A DNA stretch of 64,000 bases from Clostridiales bacterium (GTDB lineage Bacteria; Bacillota; Clostridia; Christensenellales; Borkfalkiaceae). The DNA is taken from positions 1 through 64,000 of the forward strand of contig SVHK01000002.1 in the NCBI GenBank assembly GCA_015055865.1, in the 5' to 3' direction. This document shows positions 5,254 to 9,335 of the stretch, in pieces (position 1 is the first letter of the stretch; every line of letters begins with the position of its first letter). The notes below the pieces were generated by a model, which made no database searches, was not told where the DNA came from, and saw only the letters and a program-made list of their open reading frames with translations. A program made the position numbers and the translations under genes.

Positions 5254-5700
5254 ATGAGAATAGATACTCTTTCTCCCGCAGAGGGAGCAACTAAAGAACC
5301 GAAAAGACTTGGACGCGGTATCGGTTCGGGCTTGGGTAAGACGTCCGGTAAGGGTCACAAAGGTCAATGGGCTCGTTCCGGCGGTGGCGTACGTCCTGGC
5401 TTTGAAGGCGGTCAAATGCCTATCGCGCGTCGTGTACCTAAAAGAGGTTTCAACCATAACGGTAAGAAAGTTTACGTTATCGTAAACCTTGCTGACCTTG
5501 CTGACCTTGCTGAAGGAACGGTAGTAGATTACGGTTTCGTAATGGAAAACGGCCTTGCAAAAGCAGTTAAGAACAACAGCGGTTTGAAAGTTCTTGGCGA
5601 CGGCGAACTCAACGTAGCGCTTACGGTAAAGGCGGCGAAGTTCTCCGCATCCGCGAAAGCTGCGATTGAAGCGGCTAAAGGCACGGCGGAGATTATTTAA
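5254..5700 (+). CDS. rplO: 50S ribosomal protein L15
   Basis: [41 protein letters not shown] at 5254 preferred over the upstream TTG at 5248. Confidence 0.96.
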
Positions 5701-5712
5701 CAGGAAAGACGA

Positions 5713-5803
5713 ACGGAAAACCGAAAATCGGTTTTCCGTAGTTCCCGTTATTTCTCCAAATTCGCGTATTGTTTACGCGAAAGAGTTGAGCAAATTTGCT
5801 CAA
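5713..5803 (+). repeat. Three consecutive inverted repeats in the rplO-secY intergenic region
   Basis: ACGGAAAACCGA/TCGGTTTTCCGT (5713-5724/5728-5739); TTCGCGTA/TACGCGAA (5761-5768/5774-5781); TTGAGCAAATTTGCTCAA (5786-5803). Confidence 0.9.
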
Positions 5804-5828
5804 TAACAAACCATTAACGGAGAATAAA

Positions 5829-7136
5829 ATGTTACAAACAATTATTAATGCTTTTAAAGTAAAGGAAATCCGTAAAAAGGTGTATATGATGCTCCTTTTG
5901 CTCTTGGTTTTCCGTATCGGCTGTTTCATTCCCGTTCCCGGTTTGACGAGAAGTACGTTTGAATCCGCTGTTAGCGGTAACGACTTCCTTACGTTGATGA
6001 GTAGCATTACCGGTGGTGCGCTTGCGCAAGGTACGTTGTTTGCGCTCGGTATCGGGCCGTACATCAACGCGTCCATTATTATGCAACTTTTGAGCGTTGG
6101 TATTCCTGCGCTTGAACGTTTGTCTAAACAAGGGGAAGAAGGACGGAAAAAAATCTCGCAAATTACGAGATATGTAACCATTCTTCTTGCGGTTATTCAG
6201 TCTATTGGTATTATCGTTAGCTTTGCTAATTCCAGCGGCGCAATTCAAACTTCGTTGTTCTTCAATGAAACTTGGGTTGCAGGTGTATTCATGACGTTGG
6301 TTTACACGGCAGGCGCGCTTATCGTTATGTGGCTTGGTGAAAGAATTACCGACTACGGCGTAGGCAACGGTCAATCTATGATTATTTTCGTAGGTATCAT
6401 CGCGACGGCAGGTCAAATGATTCTTGCGAAATTCGAAGTTCTTTTCGGTGGCGACGTTGACGTCGTTTGGGAATTGCTTGCGTTTGCTCTCGTTAGCGTC
6501 GTAATCTTCTTCGCAATCGTTTACGTTGACCTTTCCGAAAGAAAAGTACCCGTTCAATATGCGAAACAAATCAAAGGTAGAAAGATGTACGGTGGTCAAT
6601 CGTCCAACATTCCCATTAAAATTTCGGGTGGTGGGGTTATGCCTCTTATCTTCTCTTTCTCGATTTTGAGTTTCCCTCAAATGCTTGCAAGTATGTTCTG
6701 GCCCGATAGCGATTTTGCTATATGGTGGACGAACTGGATGTCGGCGTCTGCAACTGGTTGGGGTAGCGTAGTTTATTCCTTAGTACTTTGTCTTTTGATT
6801 TTTGCATTCTCGTTCTTTTATGCACAAATGCAATTCAATCCCGAAGACGTATCTAAGAGTATTCAACAAAACGGTGGCTTTATTCAAGGTATTCGTCCCG
6901 GTAAGGCGACGGAAAACTATTTGAAAAAGATTTCTAATCGTATTACCCTTTTTGGCGCAATTTATCTTTCGTTGGTTGCGTTCATTCCTTCGCTTGCGTT
7001 CGCGTGGGCGTCTATGGACCTCGTTAACGTATTCTCGACGACGGGTATTCTAATCGTCGTATCTTGCTCGATAGAATTTGAAAAACAACTCCAAGCGCAA
7101 ATGATGATGAAGAATTATAAAGGATTCTTAAAGTAA
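5829..7136 (+). CDS. secY: Preprotein translocase subunit SecY
   Basis: MLQTIINAFKVKEIRKKVYMMLLLLLVFRIGCFIPVPGL; multi-TM. ATG at 5829 with cggag upstream. Confidence 0.97.
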   Translation: MLQTIINAFKVKEIRKKVYMMLLLLLVFRIGCFIPVPGLTRSTFESAVSGNDFLTLMSSITGGALAQGTLFALGIGPYINASIIMQLLSVGIPALERLSKQGEEGRKKISQITRYVTILLAVIQSIGIIVSFANSSGAIQTSLFFNETWVAGVFMTLVYTAGALIVMWLGERITDYGVGNGQSMIIFVGIIATAGQMILAKFEVLFGGDVDVVWELLAFALVSVVIFFAIVYVDLSERKVPVQYAKQIKGRKMYGGQSSNIPIKISGGGVMPLIFSFSILSFPQMLASMFWPDSDFAIWWTNWMSASATGWGSVVYSLVLCLLIFAFSFFYAQMQFNPEDVSKSIQQNGGFIQGIRPGKATENYLKKISNRITLFGAIYLSLVAFIPSLAFAWASMDLVNVFSTTGILIVVSCSIEFEKQLQAQMMMKNYKGFLK

Positions 7137-7145
7137 GAAAATAAA

Positions 7146-7179
7146 GTTTGCGTTTCTCTTTTTGAAGGGAAACGCAAAC
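7146..7179 (+). repeat. Inverted repeat between secY and adk
   Basis: GTTTGCGTTTC (7146-7156) / GAAACGCAAAC (7169-7179), 11-bp perfect stem with no downstream T-tract on the + strand. Confidence 0.85.
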
Positions 7180-8879: not shown

Positions 8880-8996
8880 ATGAAAGTCAGACCTTCTGTA
8901 AAACCTATGTGCGATAAGTGCAAAGTTATTAAAAGAAACGGTAGAGTTATGGTAATTTGTTCAAAAAGTAAGAGCCATAAGCAAAGACAGGGCTAA
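8880..8996 (+). CDS. rpmJ: 50S ribosomal protein L36
   Basis: 38-aa ORF below the track cutoff: [38 protein letters not shown]. Confidence 0.96.
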
Positions 8997-9002
8997 AAAC
9001 GC

Positions 9003-9031
9003 TTGACAAGTCCGGAAAAATTTGGTATAAT
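9003..9031 (+). promoter_or_regulatory. Consensus vegetative promoter upstream of the alpha operon
   Basis: TTGACA (9003-9008), 17-nt spacer, TATAAT (9026-9031). Confidence 0.85.
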
Positions 9032-9037
9032 ATTTTT

Positions 9038-9335
9038 ATGCCGAATTTCGGGTAGCGAATCTCGTGAGAGTTTTTCCCGAAAATTTAATATGTAATTGAA
9101 CTGAATTTCCGTAAAATTTACGGAAATCAGTTTTGTTGCGTTTAAGAAACACCATGCGATTGGGCTAAAAAAGGCAAAAACGTCGTGGTGGGTTCTTTAT
9201 GTAAAAAAGGAACGGCTTTTTCGAGTAAAAGCGAAAACAATACAGTGAAAGCCAAGGGCATTTTCCACTGCCTGACGCGGACACTCGTTAGCGATAGATA
9301 AAAATATTAAATAAAAAAACGGAGGACATAAATCA
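9038..9335 (+). ncRNA. Candidate structured 5' leader or embedded ncRNA upstream of rpsM
   Basis: About 300 nt non-coding. Helices: AATTTCGGG/CCCGAAAATT (9044-9052/9076-9085); CTGA(a)TTTCCGTAAA/TTTACGGAAATCAG (9101-9115/9117-9130) followed by TTTTGTTGCGTTT; AAGAAaCACCA/TGGTGggTTCTT (9144-9154/9186-9197); CGAGT/ACTCG (9222-9226/9283-9287) enclosing CAGTGAAA/TTTtcCACTG. Confidence 0.6.

Follow-up and report, generated by a model that had tools for sequence, protein, structure and literature searches.

A covarying RNA leader at the rplO-secY junction, with a conserved strand predicted to pair with the secY Shine-Dalgarno sequence, in one genus of Clostridia

Structured RNA elements that act in cis within ribosomal-protein operons are known from several settings, and each of the closest described systems shares some feature with the junction considered here. 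In the spc operon of Escherichia coli, the same ribosomal-protein operon, uS8 (S8) acts at rplE through a cis RNA structure that affects translation initiation. In the E. coli str operon the rpsL-rpsG region, the target of uS7, is a long structured intercistronic region that controls the downstream cistron (PMC10931766). The ribosomal leader candidates of Eckert and Weinberg (2020; PMC7247131) are likewise lineage-restricted structured RNAs of ribosomal-protein operons found by covariation, and in translational riboswitches and RNA thermometers an anti-SD strand closes the Shine-Dalgarno (SD) sequence of the downstream gene. For secY and rpmJ, regulation is described in a review as unclear, and that of the spc operon as unknown for B. 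subtilis and for other species (PMC10931766; see also PMC10502375). In Halalkalibacterium halodurans the secY SD overlaps the 3′ region of rplO, a tight arrangement (PMC11445130). A search of the open literature, with most subscription journals outside its coverage, turned up no previous account of a secY leader.

The junction described here lies in a window of 64,000 nucleotides, the whole stretch of DNA analysed, where 128 nt (5701-5828) separate the rplO stop codon from the secY ATG (Table 1). All three of the strong inverted repeats given for this spacer in the preliminary description were located: a perfect 12-bp stem with an AAA loop, which forms the core of P1 (5713-5724/5728-5739; ACGGAAAACCGA-AAA-TCGGTTTTCCGT), the perfect 8-bp stem of P2 (5761-5768/5774-5781) and an 18-nt palindrome, TTGAGCAAATTTGCTCAA, at 5786-5803. 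The MFE of the 131-nt leader is -47.6 kcal/mol, compared with -22.4 ± 3.3 for dinucleotide shuffles (z -7.6, 0/200). That description had given the three hairpins equal weight, which is borne out for P1, conserved across relatives, and not for P2 and P3, whose sequence, number and length differ between species. It also lacked what is the most informative element of the spacer, the short pyrimidine strand UUUCUCC, contained in UUAUUUCUCC directly 3′ of P1. Further along the window, just past rpmJ (8881-8994), there is a perfect extended -10 sigma-70 promoter (TTGACA-17-TATAAT) at 9003-9031, followed upstream of rpsM by a structured leader of about 300 nt (9032-9335; z -4.2) that includes a hairpin at 9105-9127. 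This second region has no credible Rfam match and is a candidate alpha-operon leader.

Table 1. Coordinates of the rplO-secY junction and neighbouring features in the window
Feature	Position	Strand	Description	Basis
rplO (uL15), gene 5′ of spacer	5254..5700	+	Stop codon 5698-5700	ORF; tblastn against relatives
P1 domain (hairpin 1)	5708..5747	+	Core stem 5713-5739, weaker lower stem, conserved 3′ flank	27 orthologues aligned
Anti-SD UUUCUCC	5751..5757	+		Alignment of relatives; pairing with secY SD in spacer-only ensembles
P2 hairpin (hairpin 2)	5761..5781	+	TTCGCGTA-TTGTT-TACGCGAA; only some relatives have P2	
P3 hairpin (hairpin 3)	5785..5804	+	Contains palindrome TTGAGCAAATTTGCTCAA; hairpin kept in relatives, sequence variable	
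secY SD GGAGAA	5819..5824	+	Pairs with 5752-5757	Spacer MFE
secY, gene with predicted sequestered initiation region	5829..7136	+	ATG at 5829	ORF; SecY search
secY-adk hairpin	7146..7179	+	15 bp, no T-tract, 9 nt past secY stop; z -5.1	

Relatives were gathered through SecY searches in the genus, family and order, and their rplO-secY DNA was then read. In the genus, 28 genomes, that of the window among them, gave 29 sequences with a readable junction, and Candidatus Scatosoma pullicola (contig DVGN01000049) is one member of this leader-bearing genus. A secY match was missing in 29 of the 57 genus genomes searched and a 16S match was found in none of them, absences that probably reflect contigs missing from the metagenome bins. 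The spacer measures 113-226 nt in all 29 genus sequences, as against 0-5 nt in most relatives of the order outside the family, implying that the long structured spacer is derived. Other genera of the family have spacers mostly of 11-100 nt, without the leader element. A sister genus (g28; L042-L045) carries a P1-like stem, CGGAAAA..TTTTCCG, in its rplO-secY spacer and lacks UUUCUCC; the remaining family genera whose junctions were read have no P1-like hairpin. A covariance model built from P1 and the anti-SD strand with 27 seed sequences gave weak matches in the family, those outside g1 and g28 scoring 38 bits or less. As separate observations, three of the g28 sequences (L043-L045) could form a short local UCUC..GAGA pairing beside the secY SD, and two sequences from other family genera (L056 and L136) have a short hairpin in the spacer with two possible partners for its 5′ arm (CUCUCC or UUCUCC), the 3′ arm of the same hairpin and the secY SD, possibly an independent switch-like arrangement.

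Among the 29 genus leaders, 27 have P1 as an orthologous stem that covaries. In its alignment 91.5% of cells are paired and 8 of the 19 pairs have changed on both sides; when the partner strand is slid by 1-3 columns, pairing reaches only 38-48%. Of 500 shuffles, none or almost none reached the covariation score, and neither did any of the slid controls. Because these shuffles lose the relatedness of the sequences, substitutions were also counted by Fitch parsimony on the secY tree, which gave 15 compensated double changes, 50 single changes that keep pairing and 32 that break it. The breaking changes cluster in the lower stem and at the pair that closes the loop; support is good for the core stem and weaker for the lower stem. 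Alignment of the spacer across relatives, suggested in the preliminary description, has thus brought out a pairing maintained by compensatory change, as expected of a structured RNA. The 3′ flank of the domain has the consensus GUAGUUCGC, represented in the window species by GTAGTTCCC.

In most species the lower stem of P1 is directly followed by UUAUUUCU, and P1 might then be read as a transcription attenuator, a weak intrinsic terminator whose poor U-tract, UUAUUU, past the lower stem would cut transcription of secY-adk-map-infA, with the separate promoter beyond rpmJ insulating the alpha operon. We regard this as very improbable, since the strong part of the stem stops about 8 nt short of the U-rich run, the + strand terminator scan does not call P1, and the likely terminators elsewhere in the window carry U-rich tails directly behind their stems. 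An ordinary intrinsic terminator, a G+C-rich stem with a U-tract immediately behind it, was rejected for all the leader stems; no T-tract follows any of the three hairpins on the + strand, and simple termination is unlikely, as had been proposed.

The same preliminary description had raised the possibility of a decayed repeat element. Several hairpins in one spacer, and a P2-like sequence at the same junction in several species, are what inserted or decayed REP/MITE-like hairpins without function might leave behind. The covariance model, however, reaches 53-82 bits at the rplO-secY junction of its 27 seeds, which match by construction, and at best 34 bits away from this junction in the 57 genus genomes. 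Copies of the hairpins elsewhere in the genome, which it had been suggested to look for, did not turn up: the palindrome occurs once, and P2 and P3 are each single-copy, where a repeat element should be present many times. A pattern search did pick up a handful of further short, symmetric stems of the form CGGAAAA..TTTTCCG, but each of them lacks the rest of the element. The searches of the 57 genus genomes revealed neither a second target gene nor a dispersed repeat. A functionless repeat is also contradicted by the covariation and by the conservation of the anti-SD strand, and we dismiss it as having next to no likelihood. Against Rfam 15 no leader family was found at the gathering threshold, and raising the limit to E = 1 brought up nothing of relevance.

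UUUCUCC, the strand behind P1, is exact in 25 of the 27 aligned relatives, the other two having UUUCCGU and UUUCCUC, whereas pairwise identity at four-fold sites of secY is 0.503, and the spacer 3′ of UUUCUCC cannot be aligned between relatives. It is complementary to the secY SD, which is GGAGAAA in most species and GGAGAA in the window species, where the two form 6 bp. All 29 sequences have a paired SD in the spacer-only MFE; in two divergent leaders (L018 and L019) a different pyrimidine stretch pairs with it, so that the partner has turned over. Over the whole set, the mean unpaired probability of the SD is 0.057, compared with 0.310 when the sequences are shuffled with their last 16 nt left in place, and the set mean of the shuffles never fell below 0.235. 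Taken singly, leaders often fail to stand clearly below their shuffled versions, and only the set as a whole does so. Scrambling the anti-SD in silico raises the unpaired probability from 0.05 to 0.53. An internal control is provided by adk in the same genomes (its start placed by tblastn in the relatives), whose SD also lies behind a hairpin-bearing spacer and is 0.57 unpaired. The SD:anti-SD helix itself shows little true covariation because the SD cannot vary freely. Taken together, comparison of these sequences shows a structured RNA under selection at a single locus, in which a conserved P1 and a conserved strand matching the secY SD accompany predicted sequestration of that SD.

The predicted pairing depends on how much of the message is included. 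With the spacer plus 12 nt the mean probability of the SD:anti-SD helix is 0.91, compared with 0.52 when the folded stretch is extended by 30 nt into rplO and 40 nt into secY; in the window species the latter value is approximately zero, because a GGAGA at the end of rplO competes for the anti-SD. A conserved alternative pairing between the anti-SD and the rplO 3′ end was considered and rejected, since many relatives have a GAA Glu codon or a different sequence in place of the GGAGA of the window species. On a translated message, ribosomes would often cover the rplO end, and this would favour the closed secY start.

Could the hairpins instead act in RNA processing or stability? On this account P1 and the hairpin past secY would be barriers that set 3′ ends, the half-lives of the rplO end, secY and adk would differ, and SD pairing would be secondary. 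Hairpins without a U-tract do lie 9-12 nt past both the rplO and the secY stop codons, and almost all genus members have a hairpin about 7-14 nt past the secY stop, with sequences that differ between them. In S. aureus the secY mRNA is a target of ribonuclease III, but the cut lies inside the coding region (PMC3386247). The account leaves unexplained both the conservation of UUUCUCC (25/27) and the presence of a closed secY SD beside an open adk SD. Moreover, relatives in which the leader is absent have secY-adk hairpins too, so that these may be unrelated to it. We consider processing or stability an unlikely primary function; since the secY-adk hairpin occurs in nearly all species of the genus, it may be an additional role.

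Why, then, should a genus place a structured spacer within a message that its relatives keep compact? The reading we prefer, and think reasonably probable, is that a lineage-specific cis leader frees secY from its coupling to rplO and keeps the secY SD closed, with a trans factor possibly in control. Such a leader would have arisen in, or just before, the genus to which Candidatus Scatosoma pullicola belongs, breaking the tight rplO-to-secY spacing of relatives. P1 would fold immediately past the rplO stop, and UUUCUCC behind it would pair with the secY SD over one to three filler hairpins, closing the initiation region; P2 and P3 appear to be such fillers, taking up the loop that the anti-SD:SD helix closes. 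SecY would thereby gain its own translation rate, lower, adjustable or both, while still being made from the ribosomal-protein transcript; its control is probably separate from that of the ribosomal proteins encoded in the same message. In vivo, we infer, the SD is sequestered and SecY synthesis is lowered. The opening or stabilising factor may be ribosome occupancy of the rplO end, or a ribosomal or other RNA-binding protein.

The idea of a protein-binding leader in the preliminary description stands in part: the covarying P1 and the conserved predicted SD sequestration support its cis-acting leader component, to which a protein may or may not bind. If a protein is involved, it could be one encoded in the operon itself. 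P1 sits within the spc operon, and its lower part is bulged and sequence-conserved (the flank consensus given above), of a kind that ribosomal proteins can recognise; a spc-operon protein that bound it and altered SD access would make secY, and perhaps upstream genes, track ribosome assembly. Such an autogenous leader is a sub-case of the SD-sequestering leader that we favour. With matches to the Rfam ribosomal-protein leaders absent, we judge it improbable. Somewhat more plausible, though still doubtful, is a dedicated SecY sensor that arose de novo in this one genus, in which a trans factor (a ribosomal protein, an SRP/Sec component or another RNA-binding protein) would recognise P1 and toggle the anti-SD, so that translocon output is matched to need independently of ribosome synthesis.

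A whole genus has thus exchanged the tight rplO-secY junction for a conserved, structured leader whose architecture looks made for closing the secY start. The leader offers a specific, testable cis element for separate control of SecY, and an example of the recent birth of a regulatory RNA within one of the most conserved operons. It differs from each of the known systems. Compared with the riboswitches and RNA thermometers that sequester an SD, it is without an identified ligand-binding core or a conserved second state. The rpsL-rpsG region of E. coli belongs to another operon and concerns other genes. A text search of the paper on the ribosomal leader candidates met with no mention of bacterial uL15, of Shine-Dalgarno sequences or of a preprotein translocase (PMC7247131), whereas the genus element precedes the translocase gene. 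Finally, within the spc operon itself, the E. coli uS8 site lies at the start of rplE and is similar to the S8 site in helix 21 of 16S rRNA, whereas the element of this genus is placed instead between rplO and secY.
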